From the NCBI GenBank assembly GCA_021772075.1, contig JAETNQ010000038.1:1-33707 (forward strand): DNA of 33,707 nucleotides. Direction: 5' to 3'. A program made the translations under genes and the position numbers. This document shows, piece by piece, positions 2,510 to 16,042 of the stretch. How positions within the stretch are numbered: position 1 is the first letter of the stretch; each line of letters opens with the position of its first letter. The notes under the pieces were generated by a model. The model was not told the origin of the DNA, did not search any database, and saw only the letters and a list, made by a program, of their open reading frames with translations. Source of the stretch: Lachnospiraceae bacterium (lineage in GTDB: Bacteria; Bacillota; Clostridia; Lachnospirales; Lachnospiraceae).

Positions 2510-3400
2510 ATGAGAAAAAGACTTCAAAAACTGTTTGCAGGTGTCGGTATGATGTTTGCGCTGTTCATCGGAGGTGGTATTGTGGCTGATGCGGCGAATT
2601 ATGCGGATCTGTTCGATGCATCTTATTACGCAGAGAAGAATCCCGATGTAGTGGCGGCATTCGGTACGGATGCAAACGTGTTGTACAGTCACTATGTCAA
2701 TAATGGTATCCATGAGGGACGAAATGCAGGGCCCCTCTTTGACGTAAAAAAATACAGGGAAAATAATAGCGATCTGGAAGGGCTCTATGCTGATAACTGG
2801 GCGGCATATGTCAATCAGTATCTGACGGAGGGACTGAAGGAAGGCCGTATCGGTTATGGCGAGGAATTTGATGCTGCATCATATGCCAACAGATATTCAG
2901 ATCTGAGAAATGTCTACGGCTATGATGTGAAGAGGCTTTATACTCATTACATAACGTGTGGAAAAAAAGAGGGGCGAAATGCTTCCTGGGAGACAACAGA
3001 CGCCGAGAAAAAAGAGGAAAATAAAAAGCCGGTATTAAACGGTCATCTGGTATCAAGAAAGGCAAATCAGTTATTTAAAATAACCAATGAGGAGAGAAGA
3101 CTGTGGGGCGTAAGAAACCTCACCTGGGATAATTCTCTCGCGGCGCTTGCAGAAACCCGTGCAATGGAACTGCCGATCAGGTATGACCATGTACGCCCCA
3201 ATGGAGACAGCATCTATGAATATCATGTCGATGAAGAAAATATTTCCATGTGGTACGATGATGCTGAGGATGTTCATTATGCTTTCATGAAAGACTGGAG
3301 AGATGCCAATATTATCATCGATCCGGATCTCAGGAAAGTCGGAATTGCCTGCTATGAGGTGGGCGGTGTGTACTATTGGTGCGAACTTTTCCGTGAGTAA
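2510..3400 (+). CDS. Secreted CAP/SCP-domain protein with three surface repeats
   Basis: 296 residues from ATG 2510, chosen over an upstream in-frame GTG (2450) because AGGAGAT (2497-2503) is 6 bases upstream and the product then begins with a signal peptide (MRKRLQKLFAGVGMMFALF, cut near ADAA). Residues 35-71, 77-113 and 119-156 are three copies of a repeat with the pattern D..YY....PD...FG.....L..HY...GI.EGR, matching the two at the end of the preceding protein. Residues 185-296 look like a CAP/SCP domain: NEERRLWG, LTWDNSLAALAETRAMEL, then H227 and RPNG. Bacterial CAP proteins are exported and mostly of unknown function. The 74-base gap after the transglutaminase-like gene, without a terminator, suggests one operon. 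Confidence 0.8.
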   Translation: MRKRLQKLFAGVGMMFALFIGGGIVADAANYADLFDASYYAEKNPDVVAAFGTDANVLYSHYVNNGIHEGRNAGPLFDVKKYRENNSDLEGLYADNWAAYVNQYLTEGLKEGRIGYGEEFDAASYANRYSDLRNVYGYDVKRLYTHYITCGKKEGRNASWETTDAEKKEENKKPVLNGHLVSRKANQLFKITNEERRLWGVRNLTWDNSLAALAETRAMELPIRYDHVRPNGDSIYEYHVDEENISMWYDDAEDVHYAFMKDWRDANIIIDPDLRKVGIACYEVGGVYYWCELFRE

Positions 3401-3460
3401 ACGACAAAAAATTTAAAAATATCGGAATTTTTGGGAGAATTGCTGCTTCATTGTAAAATG

Positions 3461-3503
3461 AAATGCGACAAGAGTTAATAAACTCTATCGCATTTCTTTT
3501 TTT
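3461..3503 (+). terminator. Rho-independent terminator after the CAP-domain gene
   Basis: AAATGCGA (3461-3468) pairs with TCGCATTT (3488-3495) and AGAGTT (3471-3476) with AACTCT (3481-3486); a T-rich run follows. It closes the host operon and marks the latest point at which the host sequence is clearly recognisable. Confidence 0.75.
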
Positions 3504-3518
3504 ATACGCTTTTATAGG

Positions 3519-3562
3519 GGAATGTGTCAAGGGTTTAAAGACTTTTGGCACATTCCTTTTTA
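3519..3562 (+). terminator. Second rho-independent terminator at the host-prophage boundary
   Basis: GGAATGTGTCAA (3519-3530) pairs with TTGGCACATTCC (3545-3556) with one G-U pair around a 14-base loop, followed by TTTTTA. Two terminators in tandem, the second just before the first phage-like gene, would insulate the prophage from host transcription. The attachment site could lie here, but the other end is not in the window. Confidence 0.65.
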
Positions 3563-3590
3563 TTTTGGAGCGATAGGAGGTGTAGAAAGC

Positions 3591-3773
3591 GTGAGAAAAG
3601 GTAATAGGCGATTGAACTATGAGGACAGAAAACGGATTGAAAAAATGAAAGAGCAGGGGGCGAGAGTGATTGTAATTGCTGACACTATCGGGGTCCACCG
3701 TGCGACTATCTACAACGAGTTAAAGCGTGGAGGTACACCCTATCGGGCGGAAGTCGCACAAAGGACGGTATAG
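3591..3773 (+). CDS. Small helix-turn-helix protein, IS30-N-terminus-like
   Basis: 60 residues from GTG 3591, which has AGGAGGT at 3575-3581. An upstream ATG (3522) in the same frame lies inside a terminator hairpin and is not used as start. The product is one helix-turn-helix: RLNYEDRKRIEKMKEQGAR followed by IADTIGVHRATIYNELKRGG, as in the DNA-binding head of IS30-type transposases and many small phage regulators. There is no transposase catalytic domain, and the gene is complete, so it is probably a stand-alone DNA-binding protein. It is the first gene of the phage-like block. Confidence 0.7.
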   Translation: MRKGNRRLNYEDRKRIEKMKEQGARVIVIADTIGVHRATIYNELKRGGTPYRAEVAQRTV

Positions 3774-3775
3774 GT

Positions 3776-3988
3776 ATGGAAATGGTAGGGGAAGCGTTGC
3801 AGGAAAAGGCTAGGGAATTGGCGGATATGGTCGGTAGCGTGGTAGTAGATGAAGCGTTGCCGTTGGAGGTATTGGAAGCCGTGGCGGATTGTCCGAAAGA
3901 GGATTGCAGGCAGATTAGGCAGGCGGTACAGGATATGCAGGAAGAGCAGCAGGCAATAGAGAGAATGACCGCAGGAAAGGAGGGGTAG
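3776..3988 (+). CDS. Hypothetical acidic helical protein
   Basis: 70 residues, starting 2 bases after the previous stop and ending 1 base before the next start, so translation is probably coupled. Composition is rich in Glu, Ala, Val and Gln, with a predicted helical C-terminus (QAVQDMQEEQQAIERM). Two cysteines (CPKEDC) are four residues apart. I do not recognise a family. Confidence 0.5.
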   Translation: MEMVGEALQEKARELADMVGSVVVDEALPLEVLEAVADCPKEDCRQIRQAVQDMQEEQQAIERMTAGKEG

Positions 3989-3989
3989 C

Positions 3990-4193
3990 GTGGCGAGTAA
4001 AACGGAAAAGCACACGGTAGCGTACAGGAACGTGAAAAAGTGTGAGTTTCATAATATCGGGTCGCATATCGTGGCGACAAGCATAATCGGCGGTACTACG
4101 TTTTGTGCGTTCTTTGATTCGGGATTGCATACCGAGGAAAGCATAAGGCGGAGAGGAAGCATAAAGTTACATTCAATTTATTCTAAAAAATAG
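3990..4193 (+). CDS. Hypothetical small basic protein
   Basis: 67 residues from GTG 3990, with AAAGGAGGGG just upstream. The central part (HNIGSHIVATSIIGGTTFCAF) could form a small beta fold; the C-terminus is basic. No family is recognised. It directly precedes the DGR-type target gene and probably shares its transcript. Confidence 0.45.
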   Translation: MASKTEKHTVAYRNVKKCEFHNIGSHIVATSIIGGTTFCAFFDSGLHTEESIRRRGSIKLHSIYSKK

Positions 4194-4207
4194 GAGGAAA
4201 AGAGGAA

Positions 4208-5203
4208 ATGAGCGAAGCAATCAAGCACAACAATGTAGTGATTTTTGATGATAGGGGGATTCCCTCTATTATGGTCCGGTTTGAGAATCCGAGGGCAGCA
4301 GTTACCCCGGAAATGTTCATTATCGGAGGGGAAGAGGTAGACGCTATCTATATTTCCAAGTACCCCAATAAGGTAATCAAGGGCAGGGCGTACAGTCTGC
4401 CAATGGTAGACCCGACAACGGAAATTACCTTTGATGAAGCCTTGGCAGCTTGCCGGACAAAGGGCGAGGGGTGGCACTTAATGACCGCTACCGAGTGGGA
4501 ATATCTGTTAAATGACAGCCGGAAGAAAGGCACATTGCCCCACGGTAATACGGATTGGGGAAATGACTATTACCACAAGGAAGAGCAGGGGGAGCGTGAG
4601 GGTTGCGGATACGGCAGGACGCTTACAGGAAGTGGCCCGGATACATGGAATCACGACCACACCGTATACGGAGTATCAGACCTTAACGGCTTGGTATGGG
4701 AATGGTTGGCAGGGGTGCGTATCGTAAACGGCGTATTGGAGTACATACCGAACAATGACGCAGCCTTGGCAGGGTGCGACCTTTCAAAGGATAGCGAGAA
4801 ATGGCAGAGGATTACCACGGACCAGGGAGGAAAAACCGCCGTGAGGGTCAATGTCGAAGGCGGGGGAATCACGATTACCGACAAGGCAGCAGGCGAGGAC
4901 TACACCCCGGACTATGACGGCGTATCTTGGGAGGATTTAAAGGTTGACTTGCAGGAGATACCGCAGGCGTTACGGTACTTGGGAATCCTGCCCGAAAACG
5001 GCATAGAAGAGGAAAAGAATACCTATGTATGGTTTGACGCTACCGAGGGGGAATATCTGCCTTTCCGGGGGTCGGGTTTCAACTCTACGTCCCATTCGGG
5101 ACCGTCCGCCCTCCCCTTGCTTGATCCCCGTTCCTACTCTGGCATCAGCGTGGGCTTCCGCTCTGCTTTTTACGAGGTAAACGGCAAACTGATTACTGAA
5201 TAA
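4208..5203 (+). CDS. Formylglycine-enzyme/C-type-lectin-fold protein, probable DGR target
   Basis: 331 residues from ATG 4208 (AGGAGGAAAAGAGG upstream). The body resembles SUMF1/FGE-sulfatase folds as used in phage variable proteins: FDEALAACRTKGEGWHLMTATEWEYL near residues 79-104, then SDLNGLVWEWLAG near 157-169. The last 45 residues have the layout of a DGR variable region: PFRGSGFNSTSHSG, then LLDPRSYSGISVGFRS. Variable codons are followed by the conserved VGFRS end. Adenine is scarce here on the coding strand (9 in 100 bases at 5061-5160 by hand count), as expected where template adenines have been randomised. A GGTA-loop hairpin lies 7 bases after the stop. In known phages such proteins sit at tail tips or fibres and bind receptors. 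No reverse transcriptase is in the window. Confidence 0.8.
   Translation: MSEAIKHNNVVIFDDRGIPSIMVRFENPRAAVTPEMFIIGGEEVDAIYISKYPNKVIKGRAYSLPMVDPTTEITFDEALAACRTKGEGWHLMTATEWEYLLNDSRKKGTLPHGNTDWGNDYYHKEEQGEREGCGYGRTLTGSGPDTWNHDHTVYGVSDLNGLVWEWLAGVRIVNGVLEYIPNNDAALAGCDLSKDSEKWQRITTDQGGKTAVRVNVEGGGITITDKAAGEDYTPDYDGVSWEDLKVDLQEIPQALRYLGILPENGIEEEKNTYVWFDATEGEYLPFRGSGFNSTSHSGPSALPLLDPRSYSGISVGFRSAFYEVNGKLITE
5066..5167 (+). other. Putative DGR variable region (VR)
   Basis: Spans codons 287-320 of the lectin-fold gene. Coding-strand adenines are strongly depleted and C/T-rich codons dominate, unlike the purine-rich flanks. Several likely mutated positions have the NNC form expected from AAC template codons (TAC, GGC, AGC in the PRSYSGISVGFRS segment). 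The GC-rich end GTGGGCTTCCGCTCTGC could be the initiation-of-mutagenic-homology site. No matching template repeat was seen in the window. Confidence 0.7.
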
Positions 5204-5210
5204 CTGTTTA

Positions 5211-5228
5211 GGGGTGCGGTAGCACCCC
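5211..5228 (+). other. DGR-type target-recognition hairpin
   Basis: GGGGTGC (5211-5217), loop GGTA (5218-5221), GCACCCC (5222-5228): a perfect 7-bp stem with a four-base loop of the GRNA type, just downstream of the variable region. Hairpins of this size, loop and position are known to be needed for efficient retrohoming in phage DGRs. There is no T-run, so a terminator is less likely. Confidence 0.7.
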
Positions 5229-5251
5229 ATGAGAAGAAAGGAGTGGTAAAC

Positions 5252-5494
5252 GTGGCGGATAAAATCAGATGTGCAGATTGCGGACATTGCAAAGGGTTTC
5301 GGAAAATGAGTAATACAAGGTCGAGTTTTTCATGTGAACACCCCGACCAAAGATATATCTTGGATTATTTCAAAGACCATAGAATACAAAAAATGCCCGG
5401 TTTCCTTGGGTACGGAAAGCCGTTTTCAAGCGAAGTGCCTATAAAAACGTCCCCGGCGTGGTGTCCTAAGAAAAAGCAGGAGGGCGGAAAGTGA
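5252..5494 (+). CDS. Small cysteine-rich (zinc-ribbon-like) protein
   Basis: 80 residues from GTG 5252, preferred over GTG 5243 because AAAGGAG (5237-5243) is then 8 bases away. CADCGHCKG near the N-terminus plus later cysteines (SCEHPDQ, PAWCPKK) suggest a metal-binding knuckle. Similar small proteins are common in Firmicutes phages and have no assigned role. It overlaps the next start by four bases (GTGA). Confidence 0.55.
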   Translation: MADKIRCADCGHCKGFRKMSNTRSSFSCEHPDQRYILDYFKDHRIQKMPGFLGYGKPFSSEVPIKTSPAWCPKKKQEGGK

Positions 5495-5661
5495 AAATAA
5501 TATCACAGGTAAGCGATTTTGGATTGACCGAGGGCAGGGAGTACGAGGTATTGGAAGAAAGTGCAGGATTCTACAAAGTGCAGCTTGACAACGGCAATAT
5601 TTCATACAGGAACGGCTATTTGTTCAATAAAGGCGAGGGAGGGGCGGAAGATGAAGTATAG
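5491..5661 (+). CDS. Small SH3-like hypothetical protein
   Basis: 56 residues from GTG 5491, overlapping the previous stop. It has GGAGGG upstream (5480-5485). The sequence begins MKIISQVSDFGLTEGREY and continues with alternating hydrophobic residues (YEVLEESAGFYKVQLDNGN), as in small SH3-like barrels of phage proteins. Its end overlaps the next gene by 11 bases. The function is unknown. Confidence 0.5.
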   Translation: MKIISQVSDFGLTEGREYEVLEESAGFYKVQLDNGNISYRNGYLFNKGEGGAEDEV

Positions 5662-6130
5662 GGCATTGGCGTACAACAAGGCGGAGGACAGATTTTATTA
5701 TGTTTACGGTCTGCCCTCTTACGGATTCGATACGGACGAAATCGGGGAAATGGGAACGCCGGACGGCGATTTTACGGAGATTAACCCCGCAACCCTTGGC
5801 AGGGGGACCGGCTACAAGGACATAACAGGCACGGAGATTTTCACGGGCGATATTACGGAGTTGGAAGTAGACGGAGGAAAACGGCGGTTTACGGTAATTG
5901 AAACTACGGTTGACCGGGAATATAACACCCTGCCCGGATTTGACGGTAAGACCGTGAAAGTGAGGTTGCAGGGGGTAATAGCCTTTGAGTGGCAGCAGGA
6001 CGGAAAAACCTATATCCTGCTACCGTGCGTGGATAAAAAGGGCGTATGCGATACGGAACGTATGCGGATTGTCGGGGATATTCACACAAGGGCGGAAAGG
6101 GGCGGTAATGGAAGCAAGGGCAAAGAGTAG
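5651..6130 (+). CDS. YopX-family protein
   Basis: 159 residues from ATG 5651, with GGAGGGGCGG upstream; an ATG at 5561 in the same frame lies inside the preceding small gene and has no ribosome site. It begins MKYRALAYNKAEDRFYYVYG and carries the YopX signature TGYKDITGTEIFTGDITELE near residues 53-72, followed by a beta-rich C-terminal part. YopX-like proteins are frequent in Gram-positive phages and have no firm function. It overlaps the following YopX-like gene. Confidence 0.7.
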   Translation: MKYRALAYNKAEDRFYYVYGLPSYGFDTDEIGEMGTPDGDFTEINPATLGRGTGYKDITGTEIFTGDITELEVDGGKRRFTVIETTVDREYNTLPGFDGKTVKVRLQGVIAFEWQQDGKTYILLPCVDKKGVCDTERMRIVGDIHTRAERGGNGSKGKE

Positions 6131-6719
6131 CGATACGCCCTACCCTATATGGGTGTATGGCGAATATATGACAGAACCGCCAAGGCGACCGGGCGGGGCA
6201 TTACGCCCCGTGGGTCACTACATAGATAAGGGCGGTTATCCGGGTGCAAATGTGTACGCCGTGGATATTGCCACCCTCTGCAAAAGCACGGCAGCGGTTG
6301 ACGGCAGGGGCAGCAGGATATACACGCAGGACATTCTTTTACACGAAGCAGAGGACGAAATAGGGTACTTTGTGGTTGAGGACGAAGAAACGGCGGTTGA
6401 TGTGGTTTGGGGCGAAATAGTGGCATTAGGACGCTTGCAGGCAGGGGATATAAGCGTGGTCGGCAATATGGTAGACTACCCGGACTTTGTGGAGGGTATG
6501 AGATACCACGTTGAGAACGGCTTAGAAGTGCCTTATCTGCCTGCATTGGATGTAATGGCTACACCTTTGCCGTTTCTGAAAATGACCTGTTTAAAATGCG
6601 GATATGTTACGCTTGGTTGCCGTTATGTGGCAAAGCATAAGGATTGTGGCGGATTCTTTACAATGGATTTTGCAACGAAAATATACAGAAAAGGAGAAAA
6701 GGAAAAGGCGTTTGCATAG
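6108..6719 (+). CDS. Second YopX-like protein with C-terminal zinc knuckle
   Basis: 203 residues from ATG 6108 inside the end of the previous gene; an earlier in-frame ATG at 5985 would overlap it by 145 bases and has no good ribosome site. The middle follows the YopX order (TLCKSTAAVDGRGSRIYTQD, then ILLHEAEDEIGYFVVED). A cysteine set near the end (CLKCGYVTLGCRY and KDCGG) may bind zinc. The tandem position suggests duplication of the upstream gene followed by divergence. The last codons form one arm of an inverted repeat at 6704-6739. Confidence 0.6.
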   Translation: MEARAKSSDTPYPIWVYGEYMTEPPRRPGGALRPVGHYIDKGGYPGANVYAVDIATLCKSTAAVDGRGSRIYTQDILLHEAEDEIGYFVVEDEETAVDVVWGEIVALGRLQAGDISVVGNMVDYPDFVEGMRYHVENGLEVPYLPALDVMATPLPFLKMTCLKCGYVTLGCRYVAKHKDCGGFFTMDFATKIYRKGEKEKAFA

Positions 6720-6739
6720 TGGCATACGCAAACGCCTTT
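6704..6739. repeat. Inverted repeat at the end of the left gene block
   Basis: AAAGGCGTTTGC (6704-6715) and GCAAACGCCTTT (6728-6739) form a perfect 12-bp stem with a 12-base loop. No T-run follows on the plus strand, so termination is possible but not clear. It separates the YopX genes from the replication region. Confidence 0.55.
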
Positions 6740-6743
6740 CATT

Positions 6744-6788
6744 GCCTTATAGCAAATAATTAAACCTACTCAAATTATACTATAAGGC
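6744..6788. repeat. Second inverted repeat upstream of the replication gene
   Basis: GCCTTATAG (6744-6752) and CTATAAGGC (6780-6788) form a perfect 9-bp stem with a 27-base AT-rich loop. With the neighbouring inverted repeat and the operator pair it makes the 262-base gap before the initiator gene rich in symmetric sequence; it could belong to an origin or a control region. Confidence 0.5.
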
Positions 6789-6885
6789 TTATGGAAAGTC
6801 AATAAGCAACCTCTGAAAACGTGTAGGAAATGGCACGTTTCGGACCTTGTATGGGGTATTAACATCAAGGACAATACTATATTAT

Positions 6886-6919
6886 ATACTTATATAAGTA
6901 CATATAGTTATATAAGTAT
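6886..6919. promoter_or_regulatory. Two operator-like palindromes upstream of the replication gene
   Basis: ATACTTATATAAGTAC (6886-6901) and ATAGTTATATAAGTAT (6904-6919), 18 bases apart centre to centre. They match the 16-base palindrome ATACTTATATAAGTAT found again at 14038, 14076 and 14119. TATACT at 6885-6890 could be a -10 box overlapping the first copy, so a bound protein would block transcription of the early genes. Binding by a repressor is inference; iterons or a centromere are alternatives. Confidence 0.6.
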
Positions 6920-6981
6920 ATGGTTGGTTTGATGTACCATTTATGAGGGGAGGGGTTGGGTAGTATAAGGAGAGTGCAGGA

Positions 6982-7839
6982 ATGGCAAGAAAAAAATTTA
7001 TAAGAGAGAAAAGGATTTATTGCGGGGAGGAATATTTAGAGGTTGATATAGTACCTGTTACCAATATGCCGGAAGCAGGAAAGGGAAAAAAGGGGAAGTC
7101 CTCACAGGCTCAAAAGAATCTGAATGACAAGCGGAGTAAAAGGCGTTTCGTACAGATAGCCAATACCAACTTTGGGGCGGATGATTTGCATATATCAGCA
7201 ACCTATAACGAAGAGCATTTACCTATAACCTTGGAGGAAGCGGAAAGGAACGTACATAACTATCTTGACAGGGTAAAAAGGAGAATGAAGAGGGTCACGG
7301 GGCAGGACTTAAAATATATGCTTGTCACGGAGTATACGCCGGAAGATGAAGAGGGGCAGTTGACCCTAGAGGGCATGGAGGATAAGCAGACAAGGGCGGT
7401 TAGAATCCACCACCATATTATCTTGAATGGAGGGTTGAGCCGTGACGATTTGGAATTGATGTGGAGTGCGACCCGGATTAACTGGAAAAAGGCACAGAAT
7501 GACCCGAAATATAGGAAAACCGTAGATTATTTGGGATTCGTGAATTGTGACAGATTGCAGCCAAACGAGAACGGCATAGAGGGATTAGTAAACTATATCA
7601 ACAAGAGGAAAAAGGGGTGTAAAAAGTGGTCTACCTCTATGAATCTGAAAAAGCCAAAGGAGAAGAAAAACGACCATAAATATAGTTTCCGAAAGTTGCG
7701 GACATTGGCACAGACCCCGGAAGATAAAGAGGTATGGCGTAAGCAGTATAAAGGGTATGAGCCTACTAAGATAGATTTTCAGTATAACGAGTATACCGGG
7801 TGGAGCGTCTACCTACGGTTACGGAAAGCGAGGGAATGA
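6982..7839 (+). CDS. HUH-type replication initiator-like protein
   Basis: 285 residues, very basic. Order of motifs: YMLVTEYTPE near 112-121, the metal-binding histidines IHHHIILNGG at 142-151, and the nicking-tyrosine helix LVNYINKRKKG with Tyr205 followed by lysines. This arrangement is that of rolling-circle initiator proteins of the phage G2P/ORF2 type. Such proteins nick one strand at the origin and stay joined to the 5' end. The gene follows a promoter-operator region with paired palindromes and heads the early block. An origin is not proven; the palindromes and inverted repeats at 6704-6919 are the obvious place. The alternative is a relaxase-like nickase used for mobilisation. Confidence 0.7.
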   Translation: MARKKFIREKRIYCGEEYLEVDIVPVTNMPEAGKGKKGKSSQAQKNLNDKRSKRRFVQIANTNFGADDLHISATYNEEHLPITLEEAERNVHNYLDRVKRRMKRVTGQDLKYMLVTEYTPEDEEGQLTLEGMEDKQTRAVRIHHHIILNGGLSRDDLELMWSATRINWKKAQNDPKYRKTVDYLGFVNCDRLQPNENGIEGLVNYINKRKKGCKKWSTSMNLKKPKEKKNDHKYSFRKLRTLAQTPEDKEVWRKQYKGYEPTKIDFQYNEYTGWSVYLRLRKARE

Positions 7840-15061: not shown

Positions 15062-15293
15062 AACGTATTTCAAAAATGGGGTAAAGACCCTATGCGGTAC
15101 GGAATTGATTCTTGCAACCAAGGTTATCAATGACCCGGATATAAAAAAGATATTCACGCAAGGCGACCTTGATTTTATGAATAAGGAGTTAGGCAGACGG
15201 GCAGGGGCGATATTTGCAGGGATATTAAGGGGATTTAAGAAAAAAGACTTTGCGGAAGTGCAGAAAATATTAACAGGAGGTAAGGAAGCATGA
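15024..15293 (+). CDS. Hypothetical protein upstream of ParA
   Basis: 89 residues from ATG 15024, beginning MAAGKAEMTQEDKTYFKNG. It overlaps the ParA start by four bases, so translation is coupled. A helical, slightly basic protein. It could be a small regulator of the partition operon; no direct evidence. Confidence 0.5.
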   Translation: MAAGKAEMTQEDKTYFKNGVKTLCGTELILATKVINDPDIKKIFTQGDLDFMNKELGRRAGAIFAGILRGFKKKDFAEVQKILTGGKEA

Positions 15294-16042
15294 AAACTAT
15301 TGCAGTTATCAACATGAAAGGCGGATGTGCAAAGACCACGACAACGGTAAATATGGCTCATATCTTAGCCAAGGACTACGGTAAAAAGGTATTGGTTATT
15401 GACAATGACAAGCAGGGCAATCTTTCCAAGGCTTGCGGTGTATGGAGTTATGAGAAGCCGAGCCTTGCGGATATTCTGACAGGGCAGCAGGACATAGAAT
15501 CCGTGACGCAGGAAACGAACACGGAGCGGTTAAAGGCGATTCCTGCAAATATGCACCTTTTGACCGCTAACCTCATGGTAATTAAGGACGAGGAACGGCA
15601 GCAGGCAACCATATTAGCCGAGGAATTGGAAAAAGTAAAGGGCGAGTACGACTATTGCATTATTGATTGTCCGCCGGATATAAATATTTCCGTTATCAAC
15701 GCCCTTGTGGCAGCGGACGAGGTTATTATACCGATTAAGATTGATGGGTACGCCTTTGACGGCATGGACGAACTGGAAGAGCAGATAAACAACGCCAAGC
15801 AGCTTAACCCGAAACTGAAATTGAGGGGTTGCCTTGTGACAATGTTCTATAACCGTGACGTATGTAGGCAGGGGGAGGAATGGTTGCAGAATCAGCGTTA
15901 CCCGGTATTTAAAACGCATATCCGCAGGACGGAAAAGGCGGACGAGGTTACTTTTACAAATGAAAGCCTTATGGAGTATTCCCCACGTTCCGGGGCCGCA
16001 AGGGATTACAAGGCGTTTGTGCGTGAGTATATGGAGGTATAG
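15290..16042 (+). CDS. parA: ParA/Soj-type partition ATPase
   Basis: 250 residues. It starts MKTIAVINMKGGCAKTTTTV: the deviant Walker A motif with the signature Lys10 and P-loop Lys15. DYCIIDCPPD near 120-129 is the Walker A' / B segment, and VIPIKIDGYAFDGM and LRGCLVTMFYNR follow as in other ParA proteins. With ParB at 17084 it forms a DNA segregation pair, which in plasmids and plasmid-like phages keeps the replicon in daughter cells. Three small genes separate the two. Confidence 0.88.
   Translation: MKTIAVINMKGGCAKTTTTVNMAHILAKDYGKKVLVIDNDKQGNLSKACGVWSYEKPSLADILTGQQDIESVTQETNTERLKAIPANMHLLTANLMVIKDEERQQATILAEELEKVKGEYDYCIIDCPPDINISVINALVAADEVIIPIKIDGYAFDGMDELEEQINNAKQLNPKLKLRGCLVTMFYNRDVCRQGEEWLQNQRYPVFKTHIRRTEKADEVTFTNESLMEYSPRSGAARDYKAFVREYMEV

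Follow-up and report, generated by a model that had tools for sequence, protein, structure and literature searches.

A gene of predicted lectin fold just inside a prophage end

The window, by which we mean the whole stretch of 33,707 bases analysed here, is the complete contig C4 of a gut-bacterium genome of 103 contigs and 3.48 Mb. Sequence common with related phages begins at position 3445, and the DNA before it is taken as host because it is different between relatives. An identical left end stands behind differing DNA in eight loci; it was not recognised in L156, G302, G303 and G146. The row of genes that follows is opened by a helix-turn-helix protein and two small ORFs, and its fourth ORF, of 331 residues, is the gene studied here, VP1 (Table 1). 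Further into this integrating phage lie genes for a replication initiation protein (6982-7839) and a ParA-like ATPase (AAA_31, 15290-16042).

Table 1. Features around the left prophage end in the window.
Feature	Position	Strand	Basis
Host bases, presumably the left-hand repeat of a 15-bp target-site duplication	3430..3444	.	Repeats of G282, G300 and G301
Prophage left end GCTTCATTGTAAAAT, with -10-like TAAAAT at 3454-3459	3445..3459	+	Same start in 8 loci
Terminator-like long inverted repeat with a T run behind it	3460..3496	+	Read from sequence
Small helix-turn-helix protein (HTH_38), opening the left-end row	3522..3773	+	Pfam HTH_38, 39.3 bits against a cut-off of 27
Two small ORFs (3776-3988 and 3990-4193), immediately 5' of VP1	3776..4193	+	No Pfam family; both also in L030
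VP1, protein that is probably a remote DGR target; C-type lectin/FGE fold like that of TaqVP (predicted)	4208..5203	+	ORF, PHROG, predicted structure
Variable region VR1 of VP1	5060..5167	+	Template of G300/G301; alleles vary at template adenines
Target-site hairpin (stem of 7 bp, loop GGTA)	5211..5228	+	DNA fold; same kind after 12/12 relatives' targets

The initial annotation, made from the bare letters of the DNA, had given VP1 a lectin/FGE fold and read it as the target of a diversity-generating retroelement (DGR). The fold is borne out by the predicted structure. An FGE-type Pfam match stays under its cut-off (21.4 against 23.3 bits), and PHROG 2889 matches strongly (E 1.7e-106). Prediction from 9 input sequences reached a mean pLDDT of 31.6; 64 sequences yielded a usable model (pLDDT 91.3). 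This model matches the Thermus aquaticus protein TaqVP (PDB 5VF4; PMC6328139) with E 7.7e-36, a TM-score of 0.86 on query length and 31% identity, and profile comparison of the two proteins gives E 7e-100. The host differs; the predicted fold appears to be the same over the full length of VP1. The model also resembles Treponema denticola variable protein 1, less strongly than TaqVP. Against Mtd of Bordetella phage BPP-1 we obtained E values of about 3e-5 to 3e-4 and TM-scores of 0.32-0.34, VP1 being nearer to TaqVP in predicted structure. The variable end of VP1 is predicted to sit on a C-type lectin or similar scaffold, and the protein presumably binds a ligand.

Adenine-poor variable region and downstream hairpin

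As first noted, the 3' end of VP1 is poor in adenine, with 9 A in the 108 bases of VR1. Equally poor 108-base stretches make up 0.027% of those on the plus strand of the window and 1.07% when counted on the minus strand; because of the latter figure, adenine poverty is by itself only suggestive. The motif PRSYSGISVGFRS is present as described, although it does not end the protein: 12 further residues, AFYEVNGKLITE, come after it.

The hairpin reported downstream of the gene is there, as GGGGTGC-GGTA-GCACCCC, and its DNA fold (-9.1 kcal/mol, z -5.0) was equalled by 0 of 200 shuffles. Phage DGR targets are described as having a downstream hairpin with a GC-rich stem of 7-10 bp and a GRNA loop, in which both stem structure and loop sequence count (available text of PMC3240598), and the hairpin in the window agrees with this rule. 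An Rfam scan of 3000-7500 returned nothing above a gathering score.

Complete cassettes in related prophages

Seven of 299 genomes of the family have VP1 homologues, the window's own genome among them. An RVT_1 match was found in four of the other six. There was none in G076 and G154, both with VP1-like genes; no template/target pair was found in G154, and the sole pairing in G076 is at a paralogous locus. The genome_contigs scan for VP1 gave eight loci, and the genomes of five were searched for reverse transcriptase (RT): four have one at E < 1e-200, and in the remaining one, G299 (the genome of L156), just a distant RT was found.

A single contig holds both a complete cassette and a VP1 homologue in six genomes (G282, G300, G301, G302, G303 and G146), and the order in all six is VP1, then at a distance baseplate J, the tail target VP2, Avd, the template repeat and RT. 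An IS30-family integrase comes after RT in five of them, G303 being without it. Avd of G282 scores above its NCBIfam cut-off (94.2 against 80). The RT bears YMDD and GNLTSQ, motifs that count in favour of a DGR; in G302 the RT frame stops at residue 362, past YMDD.

In the six genomes 35.9-39.2 kb of chromosome separate VR1 from the template; in the circle the distance is 9.0-9.9 kb for the three in which both phage ends could be mapped (G282, G300 and G301). In these three, RT, Avd and template stand towards the right end, where the initial annotation had thought they might be, and in the relatives the placing of a DGR target at the left end holds. The attachment site had also been thought to split the DGR cassette. 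This was mistaken: the cassette is whole, with VP2 as its own adjacent target, and VP1 is very probably a second, remote one. A circular distance of about 8-10 kb between template and VR1 is common to six phages, namely those of G282, G300 and G301 together with Lagaffe, Dulem 37 and L133, the last three worked out from coordinates.

All 12 targets of the six complete relatives (VP1 and VP2 in each) have a GRNA-loop hairpin 3' of the variable region, at a distance of 36-43 bases; the stem measures 7-9 bp and the loop reads GGTA, GATA or GAAA. No such hairpin stands at that distance after any of their six templates (0/6), two of which have other hairpins instead, with loops TAGA or TACG. L027 and L028 also have the VP1 hairpin. 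A wider count covered 139 distinct sites with the 3' end motif of the repeat, in the window and loci L027-L185 with templates included: within the next 100 bases 76 have a four-base loop on a stem of 6 bp or more, and GRNA fits 56 of those 76 loops.

Other arrangements occur as well. Template/target pairs in G029 have targets spread over several contigs; contig C88 of this genome holds a tandem pair of VP1-like genes (L061 134-2427). In G037 a template/target pair was found for the adjacent target only.

Variation at template adenines

Compared with the template over 108 bases in each of the six genomes, VR1 departs from it at 75 template adenines in all and at 1 other position. In the order G282, G301, G300, G303, G302 and G146, the adenine differences number 15, 12, 13, 7, 11 and 17, the single other difference falling in G302. 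For the variable region of VP2 (VR2) they number 13, 13, 15, 12, 12 and 16, and the only non-adenine differences are two in G282. At loci without a matching template, VR1 leaves 23-31 non-adenine mismatches at best. VR1 of the window itself differs from the template of G300/G301 at 15 adenines and 3 other positions of 108, one of the three being a first codon position, and from that of G282 at 15 adenines and 14 other positions. By its pairing with the template, VP1 counts as a DGR target in the relatives, the window being judged against the relatives' template.

A comparison of adenine sites across strains had been proposed, and its outcome agrees with this. We used the alleles of the window, L027, L156, L157 and L158, chosen for one template type, with VP1 92-94% identical to the window; L028, L029, L160, L161, G282 and G029 were treated apart. 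In these five, nearly every template-adenine column is variable (22 of 23), in contrast to 3 of the 85 remaining columns (Fisher p 1e-18). Upstream of the variable region 56 of 852 columns vary, mainly at third codon positions (13, 7 and 36 at positions 1, 2 and 3), and inside it the pattern flips to 12, 10 and 3. These differences between genomes suggest that a DGR has acted on VP1.

The orthologue in L029 (5118-6170, VP1 84% identical) matches none of the templates compared and has a longer C-terminus without the hairpin. For these reasons it is perhaps a lost DGR target, and it may be either that or a different one.

The missing right part of the prophage

No RT had been seen near VP1, and indeed all six RVT_1 matches of the genome are on contigs other than C4, which stops amid tail genes, behind the sheath and tube genes. 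Queries with baseplate J and the IS30-family integrase of G282 gave no match in the window's own assembly, and the G282 RT gave no close match there, only RTs of 26-37% identity. As controls, the same queries in relatives found a close RT in 4 of 5, baseplate J in 4 of 4 and the integrase in 3 of 4 (G303 again without). Since the three queries fail here and succeed in relatives, the right part of the prophage is most likely missing from the assembly. The missing RT is thus most likely an assembly gap and the orphan look of VP1 the work of the contig end; we infer that the absent right end carries the same cassette. A contig break can in this way make a remote target look orphaned.

A near-copy of VR1 had also been sought as a possible template. 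BLAST in the window's own genome returned the gene itself and matches of 14-22 bases, taken as chance. Elsewhere in the window no near copy of a template turned up, in line with the original statement, the best other placement leaving 30 non-adenine mismatches of 108. The matching template exists in the relatives.

The same host genome has three further DGRs, on contigs C76 (L018), C41 (L021) and C102 (L022). Each has an RT, a template and a target to itself, with 0 non-adenine mismatches in 60 bases. An Avd-like candidate ORF of 163-164 residues stands ahead of RT in C41 and C102. The suggested search for a host RT led to these three loci, and VR1 fits none of them.

How VP1 may be diversified

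We consider VP1 very probably the second, remote target of the phage's DGR. The core of the element (the tail target VP2, Avd, the template repeat and RT) would be found towards the prophage's right end, and VP1 just within the left one, in a row running into early genes. Template RNA would be copied by RT and Avd, with mistakes made at adenines. The resulting cDNA would take the place of the matching 3' end in both VP2 and VP1, with the hairpin downstream and the invariant end of the repeat as its guides. The C-type lectin scaffold would stay fixed, and each target would come to have its own set of altered adenine columns, 7-17 of them in VP1 and 12-16 in VP2. From the architecture that it has in common with VP2, VP1 is plausibly a second adhesin, alternative or additional to the first.

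The variable end of VP1 could instead be refreshed by gene conversion from the diversified VP2, rather than directly by RT, and VP1 and VP2 of one genome do have a matching 3' stretch in common. However, VR1 and VR2 differ in 12 to 17 template-adenine columns within each of the six genomes, so that neither can have been copied recently from the other and the two must have been diversified separately. Conversion would not require a hairpin at VP1 either, yet one with a GRNA loop is kept in 6 of 6 genomes, in the window and in L027 and L028. Given this separate diversification and a hairpin of its own, homing likely reaches VP1 directly and not via VP2; we regard conversion as improbable.

Diversification in trans by one of the other host DGRs would have at hand an RT, a template and a matching target in the same genome, on C76, C41 or C102. 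Tried as drivers, these were rejected: at its best placements there VR1 leaves 31, 23 and 29 non-adenine mismatches of 108, respectively, and the relatives hold a matching template beside the RT of their own prophage. The chance that such a driver is at work seems very slight. A lectin tip that simply evolves fast, its adenine poverty being due to codon bias, would be compatible with an adenine-poor stretch taken alone, given how often the other strand is equally poor. This reading is hardly credible once the alleles are considered, in which variation tracks the template adenines and the remaining columns are nearly fixed.

Prophage ends and the circular junction

Direct repeats of 15 bp flank the prophages of G282 (L056/L058), G301 (L177/L179) and G300 (L180/L181). 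Because they are different at each of the three sites, we read them as target-site duplications and not as a fixed att core. IS30 elements duplicate only 2-3 bp of their target. All four right ends recognised by the end motif (L056, L179, L181 and L184) lie 26-27 bases upstream of a sigma-A-like promoter that points away from the phage, with 9-11 of 12 consensus matches and a 17-base spacer; random stretches reach 9 at that position in 0.21%. The right ends of G029 C19 and G146 are without the end motif, and the promoter scoring covered the four above. TnGBS elements, with a Mutator-type transposase, insert 15-17 bp upstream of such promoters (available text of PMC3942029).

That circularisation brings the right end next to the VP1 end had been supposed from the window, and IMG/VR contig L030 presents such a junction, running from the 3' end of the integrase through the right end and the left end into VP1. 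The right end is read, then two bases, then the left end. A search for more copies returned L030 alone, so that the evidence for the circular junction is one contig.

The junction in L030 sets a right-end TTGACA 18 bases ahead of the left-end TAAAAT. Integrated left ends, of which eight were compared, reach at best 0-4 of 6 matches to a -35 element, and the window is among the two that have 4. It is conceivable, if rather unlikely, that VP1, rather than being a spare tail adhesin, is a hypervariable product in its own right, made from a left-end operon turned on by circularisation. This would depend on a near-consensus promoter before the HTH and VP1 genes that forms in the circle only. The evidence here is one contig and a promoter predicted by consensus match, and read-through would be required, since the terminator-like repeats at 3460-3559 sit downstream of the junction promoter. 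A terminator scan gave a further terminator-like site at 3516-3559, the number of sites (2) equalling the shuffle mean. If circularisation did act in this way, one template would diversify both a virion protein (VP2) and an early protein of the newly infected or induced cell (VP1). HTH_38 is common to the left-end protein and the N-terminus of the right-end IS30-family integrase P0002, and the left-end protein might regulate or assist this integrase.

An old paralogue lineage and comparison with known systems

In a tree of 42 targets with the variable region removed, 25 RT-adjacent targets split from 17 others with an ultrafast bootstrap of 100; of these 17, 13 are labelled remote (the window and L027-L029 by orthology) and 4 are unassigned. 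By this tree VP1 belongs to a separate, old paralogue lineage. Because the tree separates them fully, two old lineages of hypervariable protein are seemingly kept by these phages, and perhaps they serve different jobs. With 36-39 kb in the prophage and 9-10 kb in the circle, the two geometries lend themselves to a natural test of the timing and distance of mutagenic homing.

The DGR of Bordetella phage BPP-1 (Mtd, Avd, TR and Brt) has a single adjacent target. Adenine pairing, Avd, RT and a GRNA-loop hairpin are found there as here (available text of PMC3240598). Faecalibacterium phage FP_Lagaffe also has an IS30-family integrase, and an Mtd-like target, Avd and RT together (PMC5883640, in the part available). 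Past the integrase and an HTH gene it has a second, FGE-type target, and the template lies about 9.6 kb upstream of the variable region of that gene. That variable region is already published (PMC11792537), and in the available part of that text nothing was found on its place relative to the prophage ends. The Lagaffe template pairs with the Mtd-like target with 0 non-adenine and 10 adenine mismatches in 60, and with the remote FGE gene with 0 and 8 in 60. Unlike VP1, the second Lagaffe target is longer (a CDS of 1,263 bases) and weakly placed in the tree, joining beside the adjacent group with a support of 70.

Remote targets of the Treponema denticola and cyanobacterial DGRs form chromosomal sets, not one extra target across a prophage. 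They resemble VP1 in lying away from the RT (PMC4891356 and PMC7517822, available parts). The phage DGRs nd4 and nd12, like the one here, serve two target genes from one template, and two targets are quoted for about 13% of analysed DGR cassettes (available text of PMC10743442). The second target of nd4 and nd12 is described in the same text as tentaclin, with the variable part near its start and within the cassette, whereas VP1 is a paralogue of the first target and lies across the prophage. The approach of a large DGR survey would itself miss remote targets, according to the part of PMC8144416 available, and a second hypervariable phage protein is for this reason easily overlooked.

In Dulem virus 37 the template matches a remote FGE gene with 1 non-adenine and 10 adenine mismatches; its annotated integrase stands on the far side of that gene, so the attachment point does not necessarily come between cassette and remote target in all such phages. 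Of the IMG/VR RT loci, taken from the best 80 of 110, 14 extend for 8 kb or more downstream, and one of these 14 (L133) has a second target. This gives no prevalence, since a gene at the far end of an integrated prophage would escape the count. L133 pairs with 0 non-adenine and 15 adenine mismatches in 80 at its adjacent target, and with 1 and 12 at the second.

Four relatives' contigs stop within VP1, L030, L159, L162 and L163 after residues 92, 263, 77 and 27, respectively, and perhaps the assembly was broken there by variants.
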